Source of the DNA: Sphingomonadales bacterium
GTDB lineage: Bacteria > Bacteroidota > Bacteroidia > NS11-12g > UBA955
Reading direction: 5' to 3'
Length of the DNA: 55,505 nt
Assembly (NCBI GenBank): GCA_016872175.1
Contig: VHBA01000011.1
Location: 1-55,505, forward strand
Shown here one piece after another: positions 42,307 to 50,187 of this stretch (positions are counted from its first letter, which is position 1; every line of letters begins with the position of its first letter). Below the pieces are notes generated by a model that worked only from the letters and a program-made list of their open reading frames with translations, searched no databases and was not told the origin of the DNA. A program made the position numbers and the translations under genes.

Positions 42307-43974
42307 ATGCTGCTTCAACTTAGGGTAAAAAACTTTGCCCTTATCCGCTCCCTTTCATTCTCTCCCCAAAAAGGCATGAATGTAATCACCGGTGAGACCG
42401 GTGCGGGTAAAAGCATATTATTGGGTGCCCTGGGATTGGTAACGGGAAACCGTGCCGAAATGTCGGCCCTGCTGAATCAAAATGAGAAATGTATTGTTGA
42501 AGCGGATTTTGACATTCAAGCCCTGAACCTAAAGGACTTATTTGAAGCACTGGAACTGGATTATGAACCCGTTTGCATTGTAAGACGCGAGATTAGTGCT
42601 CAGGGAAAAAGTCGTGCCTTCGTGAATGATACACCCGTTCAGCTTTCCACACTCAAACAGCTTTCCGGACACCTTGTGCAGGTTCACACCCAAAATACAG
42701 GCACCTTTATTTCAGATACGCTCGAGCAATTGCTGGTTATTGATGATTTTGCGGGAAATACATCGCTAAAAATAGAATATCAAACCGCGTTTAGAGAATG
42801 GAAAACTGAAATTAAAAACCGGGATTTGCTGCTTGAAAAGCAATCTTCTTTTGAACGTGAACAGGATTTTATCCGCTTTCAGCACGAGGAGCTCTCTGGT
42901 TTTGCACCCGCAGAAAACGAAGAAAACGAGTTGGAAACCCAGATACTAATTTTGGCCAATGCCGATGAAATCAGCAGAACATGCCGGCAGGCCGTGGACG
43001 AACTTACAGAGTCTGAACTTTCCATCACTGACAGAATCAACGGTGTTAAGCAATTATTCAGACAGGCAGAACGCTTTCTTAGCAGTGCCGATGATTATAA
43101 AAACCGACTTCAAGGCCTGGCCGAAGAGTTGAAGGAATTATCACGAGAAATAGAACGCACAGGCCAACTGGCCGAAAACAAACCCGATTTGCTGGAATCC
43201 CTGCAGGATAGACAGGCACGTATGCAATTGTTGTTTAGGAAACACGGTGTGGACAACAGTGAGGCTTTGCTGGGTATTTCACAAAGTCTGGAAGAGAAAC
43301 TGCAGGAAGCCCATTATTTGGATGAGGCTATTGATAACTCAACAGCACGTATCGCTGCGTATGAGAAAAAAGTACTATCGAGTGGACTTGTGCTTCAAAA
43401 TAGCAGAGAACAAGCCGGTGATTTATTGATGGTTGCCGTAGGCGAACAATTGCAGAAACTGGGCATGCCCCATGCAAGGTTAGCTTATGAATGGATTGAC
43501 CATTCAGAAAAACCAGACATAAATGGCCTGTCTACGCTGCGAATGACCTTCAGAGCCAACGCCGGCTCTCCCCTGCTGCCGCTTGAAAAAGTGGCCTCGG
43601 GCGGAGAACTATCGCGTGTAAATTTCTGTTTGAGAAGCCTCACCGCCATGAAGAAAACATTGCCAACCCTTATTTATGATGAGGCAGACACAGGCATCAG
43701 CGGTGAGATAGCTTTGCAAATGGCCCGCATGATGCGAAATATGGCCATGGCACATCAGCTTATTTGCATCACACACCTTCCCCAGGTAGCAGCAGCCGGC
43801 AACAATCATTTCCGCATATTCAAAGAAGAATCTGAGGCTTTTACCGAGAGTAAGATGACATTGTTAAACTCCGATGAAAGAACACAGCAACTGGCATACA
43901 TGCTGTCGGGTAGCACCGCCGGAACAGCCGCTGTGGGCAATGCCAATGAGCTCATTCAATTGTTCGCTGATTAA
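42307..43974 (+). CDS. recN: DNA repair protein RecN
   Basis: 555 residues, an SMC-like ATPase. Walker A is GETGAGKSI near residue 33, an interrupted coiled coil fills the middle (about 150-370), and the C-terminal lobe has VASGGELSRVNFCLRSL (signature) and LIYDEADTGISGEIALQMAR (Walker B), followed by ITHLPQVAAAGNNHF. RecN acts in recombinational double-strand break repair. Length is normal. It starts 1 nt after pfkA, presumably co-transcribed, and its stop overlaps the convergent rnhA stop by 4 nt. Confidence 0.97.
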   Translation: MLLQLRVKNFALIRSLSFSPQKGMNVITGETGAGKSILLGALGLVTGNRAEMSALLNQNEKCIVEADFDIQALNLKDLFEALELDYEPVCIVRREISAQGKSRAFVNDTPVQLSTLKQLSGHLVQVHTQNTGTFISDTLEQLLVIDDFAGNTSLKIEYQTAFREWKTEIKNRDLLLEKQSSFEREQDFIRFQHEELSGFAPAENEENELETQILILANADEISRTCRQAVDELTESELSITDRINGVKQLFRQAERFLSSADDYKNRLQGLAEELKELSREIERTGQLAENKPDLLESLQDRQARMQLLFRKHGVDNSEALLGISQSLEEKLQEAHYLDEAIDNSTARIAAYEKKVLSSGLVLQNSREQAGDLLMVAVGEQLQKLGMPHARLAYEWIDHSEKPDINGLSTLRMTFRANAGSPLLPLEKVASGGELSRVNFCLRSLTAMKKTLPTLIYDEADTGISGEIALQMARMMRNMAMAHQLICITHLPQVAAAGNNHFRIFKEESEAFTESKMTLLNSDERTQQLAYMLSGSTAGTAAVGNANELIQLFAD

Positions 43975-44450
43975 AGCAGTTTATCCGGTGCGGCTACGTT
44001 GGTTTCGTACCATACATCCTTATCAAACGGCCCATTGGCAGCGGCCTGCGTTGCCAGCACATCACATCGTTCGTTTTCGGGAACGCCTGAGTGCCCTTTC
44101 ACCCAGTGAAACTGGGGTTTAAGCAGTTCATACAAAGGATAAAAGCGCTGCCACAAATCCGGGTTTTTTACTTTTGTCCAGCCTTTCTTTTTCCAGCCAA
44201 ACAGCCAACCTTTGAGTATGGCATTGCATACATACTGGCTGTCTGAATATATGTGAACAGGAATTCCACGACTTTTGATATTATCCAGCGCACGAATTAC
44301 CGCAAGCAATTCCATGCGGTTGTTGGTGGTGAGGGCATAGGCACCAAAAATCTCCTTCCGTTTATCGCCATACATCAGCACTGCGGCAAAGCCACCCGGA
44401 CCGGGATTTCCCAGTGCAGCACCGTCTGTATACACCACTATTGGCAGCAT
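43971..44450 (-). CDS. rnhA: Ribonuclease HI
   Basis: 159 residues, with the type 1 RNase H core: VYTDGAALGNPGPGGFAAVL (first Asp), TTNNRMELLAVIRAL (Glu), VHIYSDSQYVCNAI (second Asp) and VKGHSGVPENERCDVLATQA (His loop and last Asp). It degrades the RNA of RNA-DNA hybrids. All four metal ligands are present. The 23-bp palindrome 27-49 nt upstream of its start covers the likely promoter. Confidence 0.97.
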   Translation of the reverse strand: MLPIVVYTDGAALGNPGPGGFAAVLMYGDKRKEIFGAYALTTNNRMELLAVIRALDNIKSRGIPVHIYSDSQYVCNAILKGWLFGWKKKGWTKVKNPDLWQRFYPLYELLKPQFHWVKGHSGVPENERCDVLATQAAANGPFDKDVWYETNVAAPDKLL

Positions 44451-44476
44451 GCAGGCAAAGTTGAAATACGTTGCAC

Positions 44477-44499
44477 TTATTCACAAAATTTGTGAATAA
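44477..44499. repeat. Perfect 23-bp palindrome, arms TTATTCACAAA
   Basis: 11-bp arms (TTATTCACAAA and TTTGTGAATAA) around a single A. Each arm contains TTATTCACA, matching the loose DnaA-box form TTATNCACA, in inverted orientation. It overlaps the probable rnhA promoter and an AAAATTTG -7-like box on the plus strand. Likely a dimeric regulator operator. Confidence 0.65.
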
Positions 44500-44605
44500 C
44501 TCAGGCAAAAAGGTTGATAACCTCAAAAAAGTGTCTTTTAATGTTGTGGAGTTGATTTGCACATTCAAATCAACCGAAATAGCACCCTTTTTCCTTTTCA
44601 TTATA

Positions 44606-44640
44606 GAAAGCCCGACCGGAAACGGCCGGGTTTTCTCTTT
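44606..44640 (+). terminator. Intergenic rho-independent terminator with GAAA tetraloop
   Basis: Stem CCCGACCG / CGGCCGGG (one A-C mismatch), loop GAAA, then TTTTCTCTTT. No annotated plus-strand gene lies immediately upstream, so it must end a small RNA, a leader, or act as an attenuator. Confidence 0.75.
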
Positions 44641-44689
44641 ACTAATGGCTATGATGATGTGAAATAGGCCGAATATAGACGGACTGTTA

Positions 44690-44697
44690 TATTTTTG
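44690..44697 (+). promoter_or_regulatory. cinA -7 element (TATTTTTG)
   Basis: A perfect TAnnTTTG 48 nt before the cinA ATG. The -33 partner is not clear. Confidence 0.4.
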
Positions 44698-44745
44698 TAG
44701 AGCCTGAACTGAAACATACCGTGAATTCAACGGTTTATAGTATAC

Positions 44746-45999
44746 ATGAATGCCGAAATTTTAACCATTGGAGATGAATTGCTGATTGGGCAAACCATAG
44801 ACACCAACAGCGCTTGGATCGGCAAAAACCTGGCATTGTTTGGCATTCAAATTTCCAGAAAAACTGCTGTAAGTGACAGTAAGATAGAAATAGTTACTGC
44901 CATCACTGAAGCCTTTAAGCGGGTGGATTTCCTATTGGTAACAGGTGGTTTGGGGCCAACCAAAGATGACATTACCAAAAAAACACTGGCCGGATTTTAT
45001 GGTTGCGGCTTCAGGCGCGATGAAAGCGTTGCTGCGCATCTTGAAAACATCTTTGCCCGCAGAGGCCGGCAATTGCTGGAAATAAACAAACAACAAGCCG
45101 ATGTGCCTGAAATCTGCGAAGTGCTTTGCAACGAGGTCGGAACAGCCCCCGGAATGTGGTTTGACCAAAAGGGGAAAGTGCTTGTAAGCATGCCGGGGGT
45201 TCCGAATGAAATGGTGCATATTATGGAAAACAGGGTTTTTCCACGCATCAAAGACCGGTTTAAAACACCTGAAATATTGCATTGTACGGCTGTAACGGTG
45301 GGCATACCCGAAAGCCTGCTCAGCAAACAGCTGGAAGATTTTGAGAAGACTCTCCCGCCTCACATCAAACTGGCTTATTTGCCGGCGCTCAATACGGTAA
45401 AACTTCGGCTATCGGGACAATCCGATGATGCCGCGCTGCTGAAAGCAGAGATGACCGGTTATTTTGACAATTTATGCGAAGTTTGCGGCGAGGCCATTTT
45501 CGTGCGGGAAGACATCAGTCCGGTTAAGTATATTGCTAGACAGTTGATCCATAACAAAATCAAAATTTCACTGGCTGAAAGCTGCACAGGCGGCTTCATT
45601 GCCAATCAGTTGGTAACAGAGTCGGGAATTTCAAAGGTTTTTAATGGTAGCATTATCTCCTACGCCAATGAAATCAAGCACCGTGAGCTTGGGGTTCCGA
45701 ATGAAATATTCAGCACCGTTGGCGCTGTGAGTGAAAAATGTGCACGATACATGTGCGAGGCGGCCCTTAAAAAATTCAATGCAGATATTGCCATTAGCAC
45801 CACAGGTATTGCCGGTCCGGGTGGCGCCACCGATGAGAAACCGGTTGGACTTATTTACATTGGCATTGCAACAGCAAAAGGTTCACGGGTAAAGAAATAC
45901 CATCTTTTTGGCACACGCGAACAATTCATGCAGCGTGCCGCTAATTGCGCTATGATGCTGGTGAAAGATACACTGCTACAAGAGTTTGGCGTACATTAA
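44746..45999 (+). CDS. cinA: CinA/PncC family nicotinamide-nucleotide amidohydrolase
   Basis: 417 residues in two domains. The N-terminal MoaB-like part has EILTIGDELLIGQTIDTNSA and TGGLGPTKDDITKKT. The C-terminal deamidase part has LAESCTGGFIANQLVTESG and STTGIAGPGGATDEKPVG. The family recycles NMN to NaMN (PncC) and, in the N-terminal domain, hydrolyses ADP-ribose. Both domains appear complete. A short gap separates it from the split surface-protein gene, which has its own promoter. Confidence 0.96.
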   Translation: MNAEILTIGDELLIGQTIDTNSAWIGKNLALFGIQISRKTAVSDSKIEIVTAITEAFKRVDFLLVTGGLGPTKDDITKKTLAGFYGCGFRRDESVAAHLENIFARRGRQLLEINKQQADVPEICEVLCNEVGTAPGMWFDQKGKVLVSMPGVPNEMVHIMENRVFPRIKDRFKTPEILHCTAVTVGIPESLLSKQLEDFEKTLPPHIKLAYLPALNTVKLRLSGQSDDAALLKAEMTGYFDNLCEVCGEAIFVREDISPVKYIARQLIHNKIKISLAESCTGGFIANQLVTESGISKVFNGSIISYANEIKHRELGVPNEIFSTVGAVSEKCARYMCEAALKKFNADIAISTTGIAGPGGATDEKPVGLIYIGIATAKGSRVKKYHLFGTREQFMQRAANCAMMLVKDTLLQEFGVH

Positions 46000-46045: not shown

Positions 46046-47524
46046 TTGGGAAAAGCCCTATTGCATACTGCCCGTTTTCTTTTTTTAACATGTATTTTTC
46101 TTGCATGGTCAGCGCCACTGATGGCATTTGATTTACCTAAAAATCAAAACCTTGAAACCGGCAGTCAGGCTTTTATGAAGAATCAGGGACAATGGGAAGA
46201 TGGTTGTCTCTACCATTTCCGCAGTGGATTATTTCAGGCCAGTTTTTATAGCGACAGAATTGTTTTTACGGTAGCAAATCCAAAAGACAAGTTTGCAGCG
46301 CCTCCTAAACCCAATCCCGAGCATCCGGAACCTCCAAATCCGCGGTTTATGCTGCAGGTATGGGAAATTAGTTACCAAAATGCACTCCCCTTTCAATTTG
46401 AAGTCCAAGCACCCTTGGAGAATAAAATTGGATATGCCAAAATTCATAAAAACGGAAAAATTGTTTACCCTGAACAGTTTGAAAATTTGCGCATCAAGAA
46501 CCTATACGAAGGTGTAGATGCTGTTTTCAGCAACTACAATGGGGTATTGAAAATAGATTACATTATAAAACCGGGTAGTAAACCCAATATTGTATTTACC
46601 GTAAATGGCTTCACGGAAACCCGTGTTGATGAGCGAGGCAATATTGTATTGAAAAGCGAATTTGGTCAGCTGGTAGACAGCATTCCTTACAGTTATGAGC
46701 AAAACGGCACCCGTACACCGATTGATGTGAGATATGCACAAACCGGAAAACACACTTTCGCATTACAGTTTCCGGAGGATTTCAACAATGAAAACGGCGC
46801 GGTGGTAGATCCATTTTACCTGGATTACAGTACTTATTTTTATGGTAACAACCTGACAAACATACTTACCTACATCTATGATGTAAATGTAGATGCCAAT
46901 AATAACAGCTACATTACCGGTCTCACCACAGACAAATACCCGGGTAAGCCAGGCACCTATGACACCACTTTGGCAGGCAGTTATGATGCATATTTATGTA
47001 AAATGCCATCGGGTGGTGGAAAACCTGATTATTTCATTTATTTGGGAGGAACTTCTACCGATTATGGATATGCAATGGCAACAATAGATAACGGCGATAA
47101 TTATCTAACCGGTTACACCAGCTCTGTAGATTATCCCATAACCTCCGGAGTACTTGAACCCACAAGACCTAATACCACTTCTTACGTAAGCTATGTTACC
47201 GGGATAAAATCTGATGGCAGTGCTTTAATTTATTCAACTTATTTAAAAGGTTATTGCTGGGTAATTGATGTTAATAGCCAGGGACAGGTTTATGTAGCTC
47301 CATACGGAAACAACCCCTACACGGTTACAAAGGACATTAATCCGCCCGGACAGGTGGGTGGTGGGTTTGAGGCAAACATTATAAGATTAAACAGCACCGG
47401 CTCTGCCATCTTAAATTGTGTTGAATTAAAAGGATTCGGAAGTGAATACTTATATGCATTAACCATTGACAAAAAAACCAGGTTTATGCTGCAGGTTGGA
47501 CCAGCAGCGACAATCTACCTGTAA
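46046..47524 (+). CDS. 5' part of the split surface protein: DUF7948 and SBBP repeats
   Basis: 492 residues as it stands. The signal peptide (ARFLFLTCIFLAWSAPLMAF) starts at TTG 46046 or TTG 46061; no ATG is available. DUF7948-type domain (about 35-260): FMKNQGQWEDGCLYHFRSG, IRIKNLYEGVDAVFSNYNG, LKIDYIIKPGSKPNIV. SBBP-like beta-propeller repeats begin near VDANNNSYITGLTTDKYPG and DAYLCKMPSGGGKPDYFIYL. The final 15 residues (RFMLQVGPAATIYL) are out of frame, caused by the A7 tract. Alone it would be secreted without its sorting signal and probably non-functional. Confidence 0.75.
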   Translation: MGKALLHTARFLFLTCIFLAWSAPLMAFDLPKNQNLETGSQAFMKNQGQWEDGCLYHFRSGLFQASFYSDRIVFTVANPKDKFAAPPKPNPEHPEPPNPRFMLQVWEISYQNALPFQFEVQAPLENKIGYAKIHKNGKIVYPEQFENLRIKNLYEGVDAVFSNYNGVLKIDYIIKPGSKPNIVFTVNGFTETRVDERGNIVLKSEFGQLVDSIPYSYEQNGTRTPIDVRYAQTGKHTFALQFPEDFNNENGAVVDPFYLDYSTYFYGNNLTNILTYIYDVNVDANNNSYITGLTTDKYPGKPGTYDTTLAGSYDAYLCKMPSGGGKPDYFIYLGGTSTDYGYAMATIDNGDNYLTGYTSSVDYPITSGVLEPTRPNTTSYVSYVTGIKSDGSALIYSTYLKGYCWVIDVNSQGQVYVAPYGNNPYTVTKDINPPGQVGGGFEANIIRLNSTGSAILNCVELKGFGSEYLYALTIDKKTRFMLQVGPAATIYL

Positions 47525-47784: not shown

Positions 47785-50187
47785 ATGCGGATTTACAAAA
47801 CCGGCTATTTCCCGAAATGGACTACCCATATCACCAATAGCACCTATGCATGGCGTCAGCGAATCAGCGTAAACGCAAAAAACGAATGTGTATTTGCAGG
47901 TAGTACCACTAACAGCAGCCTGTCGGTAACAGCTGATGCTTATCAAAAAACCCTAAAAGGCGGATGGGATGCTTTTATCGGAAAATTATCCATCGACGGT
48001 GATAAACGTTACCTTTCATATTTTGGAGGTGATGGAACGGACTACTTTTTTGCCGTTCAAACTCGTAGAATCGGATGTGTTACCCATATTGTGATAGGTG
48101 GCTGGGGAACAGGTACAGGCTATCCAACCTACAAAGCATGGAAATCCACATTGCCAATAGGAATATCTTATGTAGGCAGGATTGCCAAATGGAGGGACAC
48201 ATTGAAAGAAGACCCCATAGATTTTGGCCCGGATGCCATGCAATGCGACCGCAACTACCGCATTATTGAAGCTGGAAATCCGGGGGCGTCCTACCTGTGG
48301 CAGGATGGCAGTAAACTCTCCTATTTCATAGTAGATAAACCCGGCAAATACTGGGTTACGGCCAGCTATGGATGTGGTAAAAAATCAGATACAATTTCTT
48401 TTAGTATTGCTCCCGGCGCCAAACCGCATTTTCCAAAAGACACCCTCATTTGCGACAAATACGGACTGCTGCTGGATGCCAGAAATGACACCATCAAAGG
48501 CATTAAATACGCCTGGAATACAGGCGATACAACCCGGAAAATATTTGCAGATACTTCCGGAAAATATACGGTTGCTATGTGGACTCCCGTTTGCCAGTGG
48601 CGGTATGATAGTATTCAGGTAACCAAACAGTATAAACCCATTCGGGGCATCTGGCAAAAAGATACAGTTCTCTGCAAACCCTTCACCATTAATTTGCGTT
48701 CGGGAAGCGATACCATTTCTGCGGCGTATGCATGGAATACGCTTGATTCTGTTCGCCATATTACAATTTCAAAAGCCGGATTGTACAACATACAAATCAG
48801 CAATCAGTGCGGTATTTTGAAAGATACAGTGCAAATAGATACAGACGGTATTCCCATCATTTCCTACAAAACCGATACCCTGATTTGCGATAAAGACAGT
48901 TTCCGTATTTCACGCAAAGGATTCTCCCACTGGACAAGCCTTACATGGAACGACGGAAGCAAAGACACATCGCGCATTCTGACCAAGGCTGGTGTTTATA
49001 CCATAAATATTAGCAACAGTTGCAAAGCTTACACAGACACTATCAAACTGAAGATGGGGAAAATCCCAAAAACCTTTTCGTTGGGCAATATGCTGTGGTG
49101 CGACAATTTCCAGTTGATACAAACCGTAAACGACAACAGCTTTGCCAACATCCGCTGGAGCACAGGCGATACCGGCAGACAATTAAAAATAAAAGACACC
49201 GGTATCATTACAGCCACAGCCGAAAGTATATGTGGTACAAGCAGCGCCAGTTTCAGGGTAGAACGGGGTTTCAGCCCGGAAATAAAACTTGGGCGCGATA
49301 CGCTGATTTGCAATGCCGCCTCCTGGCAAATTATGCCTAAATCCATCAAATTCCTGAACCAGATTCAGTGGGAAAATGGTTCTTTATCCAATAACAGAAC
49401 CATTAATACACCCGGAAAATTCTGGGCTACGGGCACCAATAATTGCGGAACCATATCAGATTCCATTACCATTGTATTTCTAAATTCACCAAAAGTAACA
49501 GCACCTTCAGATCGCACTTATTGCGATTTTGTAAGCCCCATCCCCTCCCTGACAGCAAATGCTTCCGGAGGTATGGCTGCATTTACCTGGAATACCGGTG
49601 AAACCGGTTTAAGTATAAAAGGCAACACGGCCGGCATGTATGTGGTTACAGGTTCAAATGCCTGCGGCAACAGCAGCGATACTGTTTACATTAGTGTTGT
49701 TCCCTCTCCCAAACCCGATTTGGGCATTGATACCGCATTCTGTGGCGTATTTGCTTACCCACTTACCGTTGGTAAAGGATATCAATTTGTCGCCTGGAGC
49801 AATGGCTCTTCTGCAAAAATGATTACTGCTACGGATTACGGAATATACAGTGTGAAAGTTACCGATTTCAATGGCTGCTCAGGCACAGATGAAATGATTA
49901 TTGGTAGTAACTGCAAGCTTATCTGGTATATGCCGACAGCCTTCACACCCAATGGTGACGGCAAAAATGATGTGTGGGGTCCAACAATCAAGGACGTGCA
50001 GGAATTGAAAATTGCCATCTACAACCGCTGGGGTGAAAAAATTTGGGAGAACCGCGATGGTCAAACATCATGGGATGGAAACTACGGAAATGTGCTTGCA
50101 CCTGAAGGTGTCTATACCTGGACCGCCAGCTTCAGAAGCAACTTCAAACCCTATTACAAATCCGGGGTATTGACGCTGTTGCGTTAA
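47785..50187 (+). CDS. 3' part of the split surface protein: eight Ig-like repeats and T9SS type B domain
   Basis: The frame is open from 47479; 47785 is only the first ATG and has no signal peptide, so this part is unlikely to be expressed by itself. After the last SBBP unit come eight tandem units of about 70-85 residues. Each has one Cys after the first strand (TLICDK-type) and one near the end (NSC, NNC, NAC), probably disulfide-linked Ig/PKD-like domains. The C-terminus WYMPTAFTPNGDGKNDVWGP, then IYNRWGEKIWE and APEGVYTWTASF, is the CHU_C type B T9SS signal, which attaches the protein at the surface. Role likely adhesion or gliding. Confidence 0.8.
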   Translation: MRIYKTGYFPKWTTHITNSTYAWRQRISVNAKNECVFAGSTTNSSLSVTADAYQKTLKGGWDAFIGKLSIDGDKRYLSYFGGDGTDYFFAVQTRRIGCVTHIVIGGWGTGTGYPTYKAWKSTLPIGISYVGRIAKWRDTLKEDPIDFGPDAMQCDRNYRIIEAGNPGASYLWQDGSKLSYFIVDKPGKYWVTASYGCGKKSDTISFSIAPGAKPHFPKDTLICDKYGLLLDARNDTIKGIKYAWNTGDTTRKIFADTSGKYTVAMWTPVCQWRYDSIQVTKQYKPIRGIWQKDTVLCKPFTINLRSGSDTISAAYAWNTLDSVRHITISKAGLYNIQISNQCGILKDTVQIDTDGIPIISYKTDTLICDKDSFRISRKGFSHWTSLTWNDGSKDTSRILTKAGVYTINISNSCKAYTDTIKLKMGKIPKTFSLGNMLWCDNFQLIQTVNDNSFANIRWSTGDTGRQLKIKDTGIITATAESICGTSSASFRVERGFSPEIKLGRDTLICNAASWQIMPKSIKFLNQIQWENGSLSNNRTINTPGKFWATGTNNCGTISDSITIVFLNSPKVTAPSDRTYCDFVSPIPSLTANASGGMAAFTWNTGETGLSIKGNTAGMYVVTGSNACGNSSDTVYISVVPSPKPDLGIDTAFCGVFAYPLTVGKGYQFVAWSNGSSAKMITATDYGIYSVKVTDFNGCSGTDEMIIGSNCKLIWYMPTAFTPNGDGKNDVWGPTIKDVQELKIAIYNRWGEKIWENRDGQTSWDGNYGNVLAPEGVYTWTASFRSNFKPYYKSGVLTLLR

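Follow-up and report, generated by a model that had tools for sequence, protein, structure and literature searches.

C-rich-motif small RNAs (sRNAs) such as RoxS/RsaE and FsrA are known from Firmicutes, whereas a Shine-Dalgarno sequence is missing from many genes of Bacteroidota. The closest described systems within Bacteroidota are Rfp18 of Flavobacterium psychrophilum, a lineage-specific intergenic sRNA (PMC9723704), and MasB of Bacteroides thetaiotaomicron, a regulator that base-pairs to an mRNA's 5' region (PMC10994844). Here we describe an RNA, located in the divergent gap between rnhA and cinA, that resembles Rfp18 and MasB in being roughly 100-180 nt long, intergenic, structured and narrowly conserved; sequence-similarity and Rfam searches found no relative of it outside its genus, and Rfp18 and MasB were compared by description only. 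Like RoxS/RsaE and FsrA, it has a conserved, single-stranded C/U-rich segment by which purine-rich ribosome-binding sites could be blocked, but there is no sequence relation and the phylum is different. 6S-Flavo RNA (RF01685) is likewise a short flavobacterial non-coding RNA, and a closing stem is possible in the RNA described here, but no match to RF01685 appears at E-values up to 10 and both sequence and stem layout are unlike its consensus. We consider it probable that this locus holds a previously undescribed sRNA gene of ~140 bases whose product regulates in trans by base pairing.

The window (the whole stretch of DNA analysed, 55,505 nucleotides) contains rnhA and cinA as divergent neighbours, both names being backed by Pfam (Table 1). 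Relatives used for comparison are metagenome-assembled Flavobacteriales/Bacteroidetes; cinA is present in 55 of 58 of them, and where the locus is long enough to tell, the remaining members of the genus share the order recN-rnhA-cinA, as do several other genera. The initial annotation offered three readings of the gap: a new small RNA, an attenuator displaced from its operon, or a regulatory leader of cinA. Orthologous gaps were compared between the window genome and those of five congeneric species. An alignable gap of 293-367 bases occurs in six of the seven genus genomes (G000, G002-G006), and the element is conserved in all five other species; the gap is 174 bases in G001 and 38-165 bases in sister genera, where the element is absent. 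Wherever it occurs, the element adjoins cinA, and it is present as a single copy per carrier genome. As a separate observation on this contig, a secreted protein with DUF7948 at its start and a CHU_C type IX secretion signal at its end is split over two frames (46046-47524 and 47785-50187); because frame 1 carries the protein on from ~47475, the likely cause is an indel of one base, either genuine or introduced in assembly.

Table 1. Features of the rnhA/cinA gap and its flanking genes (window coordinates)
Feature	Position	Strand	Remarks
rnhA (RNase HI)	43971-44450	minus	ORF; Pfam RNase_H, 8e-39; divergent neighbour of the sRNA block
rnhA -7-like box, CAACTTTG	44456-44463	minus	-33 box TTTG at 44484-44487
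Candidate sRNA -33 box, GTTG	44460-44463	plus	21 nt before the -7-like box
Palindrome, TTATTCACAAAATTTGTGAATAA (TTATTCACAAAAATTGTGCACAA in relatives)	44477-44499	none	23 bp; perfect 11-nt arms; overlaps both divergent promoters
Candidate sRNA -7 box, AAAATTTG	44485-44492	plus	predicted start ~44497
Conserved sRNA body	44507-44641	plus	aligned gaps of six species; probable transcript ~44497-44640
5' stem-loop, AGGUU-GAU-AACCU	44511-44523	plus	DNA AGGTT-GAT-AACCT; nearly invariant
Single-stranded stretch, AGUGUCUUUUAAUGUUG	44530-44546	plus	aligned gaps; moderately conserved
Apical hairpin	44551-44574	plus	arms 44551-44559/44566-44574, 9 nt, perfect; sequence varies, pairing kept
C/U-rich linker, CGAAAUAGCACCCUUUUUCCUUUUCAUUAUA	44576-44605	plus	begins GAAAUAG...; conserved; proposed pairing (seed) region
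Intrinsic terminator, GAAAGCCCGaCCG-GAAA-CGGcCGGGTTTTC	44606-44640	plus	GNRA loop, U-rich tail
cinA -7 box, TATTTTTG	44690-44697	plus	four species have it equally far past the terminator
cinA	44746-45999	plus	Pfam CinA, 2e-49

Conservation among the six species is concentrated within the element, with mean pairwise identities of 95% in the 5' element (44507-44523), 91% in the linker and 91% in the terminator (44606-44641). Between terminator and cinA the spacer varies in length and shows no conservation, its identity (40%) being close to that of fourfold-degenerate cinA sites (41%). A 151-nt RNA spanning the element folds with z = -3.9. A covariance model built without the terminator (R2) scores 84-117 bits in the same six of seven genus genomes, whereas 63 others in the family reach no more than 28.5 bits; the weak matches elsewhere in the family that were inspected are ordinary terminators or chance. 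A strict two-block exact pattern searched against 395 genomes of the class matched only G000 and G005, both in the same genus. Rfam searches, at the gathering cut-off and with E-values up to 10, gave no family match, only chance matches, and the phage, plasmid and viral collections searched gave none. The RNA is thus restricted to six species of one genus, i.e. lineage-specific.

The GAAA-loop terminator reported in the initial annotation is present, with the correction that its stem carries one A.C mismatch on the plus strand in the window species, because of which a generic scan had listed the stem on the minus strand only. The fold is nevertheless more stable on the plus strand in every species (-17 to -20 kcal/mol, -19.6 kcal/mol in the window species, versus -7 to -17 kcal/mol on the minus strand), and the plus-strand loop is GAAA or GAGA, both GNRA. 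In G004 and G006 the plus-strand stems contain G-U pairs that become A.C on the minus strand, with energies of -17.1 and -20.0 versus -11.1 and -7.0 kcal/mol. These GNRA loops and G-U wobbles lead us to assign the RNA to the plus strand. They likewise count against a minus-strand feature, be it an rnhA leader or a short gene that opens with ATGAAAAGGAAAAAGGGTGCTATTTC (MKRKKGAIS...), which we regard as highly unlikely. In minus-strand reading the conserved linker does start with ATG, and all six species retain a readable GAIS, but codons past GAIS are unconserved, a stop follows after ~14 residues in G004 and G006, and the hairpin described below covaries regardless of codons; rnhA, for its part, has its own conserved promoter closer in.

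Promoters were sought by the flavobacterial consensus, in which the -7 element is TAnnTTTG (PMC9723704). The rnhA promoter holds its position across the six species, scores 8-9 of 10 against the consensus and has its -33 box inside the palindrome. A candidate sRNA promoter on the opposite strand also keeps its position in all six, but its match to consensus is weak (6-8 of 10). The -7 element that had been attributed to cinA in the initial annotation is present as TATTTTTG; the box is TAATTTTG in G005 and none was found in G006, so that one or other form stands 46-48 bases past the terminator in five of six species. Because cinA has this conserved promoter box of its own after the terminator, we interpret the RNA as a separate gene. 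For the same reason a cis-acting leader or attenuator, in which transcripts begun at ~44497 would end at 44640 under some conditions and otherwise read through into cinA, appears unlikely. It would be consistent with the common strand, the terminator 105 bases before the cinA start codon, the linkage to cinA in all six genomes and the existence of two alternative 5' pairings. Against it stand not only the separate TAnnTTTG box but also the unconserved, variable spacer, the lack of any antiterminator competing with the terminator stem in per-species folds, and the lack of an Rfam riboswitch match. A regulatory leader of cinA, one of the originally proposed readings, is thus poorly supported, as the RNA ends at the terminator.

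The three inverted repeats previously noted upstream of the terminator correspond to the palindrome, the 5' stem-loop and the apical hairpin. Across the six species the palindrome has 88% mean pairwise identity and 70% invariant columns. At the search stringency used, it occurs once in each of the six RNA-carrying genomes and nowhere in G001, which has no RNA, so it goes with the RNA; overlapping both divergent promoters, it is a putative operator. It can also be read as two copies of TTATTCACA facing each other, each a fit to the DnaA-box consensus TTATNCACA, and in most relatives it contains one exact DnaA-like box and one near box. The DnaA-box reading was rejected: TTATNCACA is no commoner than chance in the window, and there is no clear skew switch.

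The apical hairpin is among the least conserved segments of the element (51% identity), yet it folds in all six species at nearly the same place with stems of 6-9 pairs. Relative to mononucleotide shuffles, the combined Fisher p for its presence in all six is 4e-8, an optimistic value that overstates independence because the species are related. In a model-fitted alignment, five pairs (four of them in the apical hairpin) show two-sided compensatory changes versus 1.4 in shuffles, none of 500 shuffles reaches the covariation score, and 98.6% of cells are paired, falling to at most 53% once partners are slid by one column. Because this alignment was fitted to the model, a stem table registered by hand for each species serves as the independent check. 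The 5' segment offers two pairings, the AGGUU-RAU-AACCU stem-loop or pairing of AAAAAGG with CCCUUUUU in the linker (44586-44593); both are possible in all six species and neither covaries.

The string PFFLFII, noted originally as part of an open frame before the terminator, is readable there, but the frame itself is not conserved: G000 and G004 keep it open, stops interrupt it in G003 and G005, and indels, either in the hairpin or of single bases, throw it out of register in G002, G005 and G006. It lacks a conserved start codon, and neither strand carries a conserved ORF across the six species. Because no reading frame survives, PFFLFII is not a leader peptide, and an amino-acid leader peptide attenuator parted from its operon, for which the readability of PFFLFII before the terminator is the argument, becomes scarcely credible. 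In-frame stops and indels (some of 4 nt) interrupt the frame, bases are conserved at all codon positions, and there is neither a conserved short ORF with regulatory codons nor a cognate biosynthesis or tRNA-synthetase gene downstream, the adjoining gene being the non-biosynthetic cinA in all six. Three properties of an independent intergenic small RNA are, by comparison, found here: its own terminator, a conserved structure with compensatory changes, and no coding potential. Of the readings originally listed, the new small RNA is the one that conservation, covariation and the independent terminator support.

Another possibility is that the RNA is a highly diverged 6S RNA of the genus, i.e. a promoter mimic binding RNA polymerase. 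A layout of closing stem, open region and apical hairpin is possible, and the 6S RNA of the genus is unaccounted for, because these genomes have no RF00013 or RF01685 match over the cut-off. Nonetheless the closing stem of ~7 pairs and apical stem of 6-9 pairs are much smaller than those of 6S RNA, rather than long stems round a central bubble, and bases outside the putative closing stem are unconserved and unpaired. No 6S family is among the sub-threshold Rfam matches (E up to 10), and the RNA is missing from the rest of the family, where a 6S RNA is expected too. Given these stem sizes, the narrow range and the lack of an Rfam signal, we judge a 6S identity very unlikely. Searched over the genus, its relatives and the order, the 6S models gave nothing above cut-off. 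Among 108 genomes of the order, a single sub-threshold 6S-Flavo match (RF01685; 36 bits, cut-off 85) fell inside the default E-value limit, at L076:1501-1635 in G052, which belongs to another family; 6S RNA of the order seems to be mostly missed by Rfam models.

For the favoured reading, a discrete base-pairing sRNA, we infer the transcript, its start site, its pairing mode and its seed from sequence. The sRNA gene would lie on the plus strand and point away from rnhA; its transcription would begin in the divergent promoter region, which holds the unique palindrome, and stop at the gene's own terminator, ~50 bases short of the cinA promoter box. The 5' stem-loop and the covarying hairpin would display the conserved C/U-rich single strand (GAAAUAGCACCCUUUUUCC...), which would pair with purine-rich sequence close to the point where translation of target mRNAs begins, while being partly self-masked by the 5' AAAAAGG. 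This architecture (5' stem-loop, hairpin, single-stranded linker, terminator) resembles that of base-pairing sRNAs, with the linker as the natural candidate seed. The seed complement GGGTGCTATTTC was searched against the seven genus genomes, giving 137 near-matches, of which 127 sites were examined; no recurring site upstream of start codons was apparent among them. Only 22 of the 127 sites lie near a possible start codon, and several are terminators. Predicted pairing of the sRNA with cinA or rnhA had energies like those of shuffles, or used different sites in different species, and none was convincing. Because these searches gave no conserved target and no convincing cinA or rnhA pairing, the base-pairing mode is assigned by analogy, and the RNA may instead have a protein-binding or mainly cis role. 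Seed-like 12-mers are ~1.5-2.7 times as frequent as a reversed-pattern control in the six carriers, versus about equal in G001, which lacks the RNA; terminators account for some of these sites.

A more elaborate scheme, which we find rather unlikely, is a self-masking RNA unlike described families. In it the invariant 5' AAAAAGGUURAUAACCU would either form its stem-loop or pair with the likewise invariant CCCUUUUU, switching the RNA between open (seed-exposed) and closed states under the control of a factor bound to the unique palindrome, which the rnhA promoter shares.

Whichever mode applies, the RNA represents a genuine, narrowly distributed small-RNA gene family of an ordinary sort, a fresh example of a common gene type, and the general picture of RNA regulation is unchanged by it. 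It adds a well-supported, hitherto undescribed RNA family, spanning six species, to the uncultured Flavobacteriales, in which few regulatory RNAs have been characterised, and its alignment can serve directly as a model, with a defined candidate seed, in tests of expression and targets.
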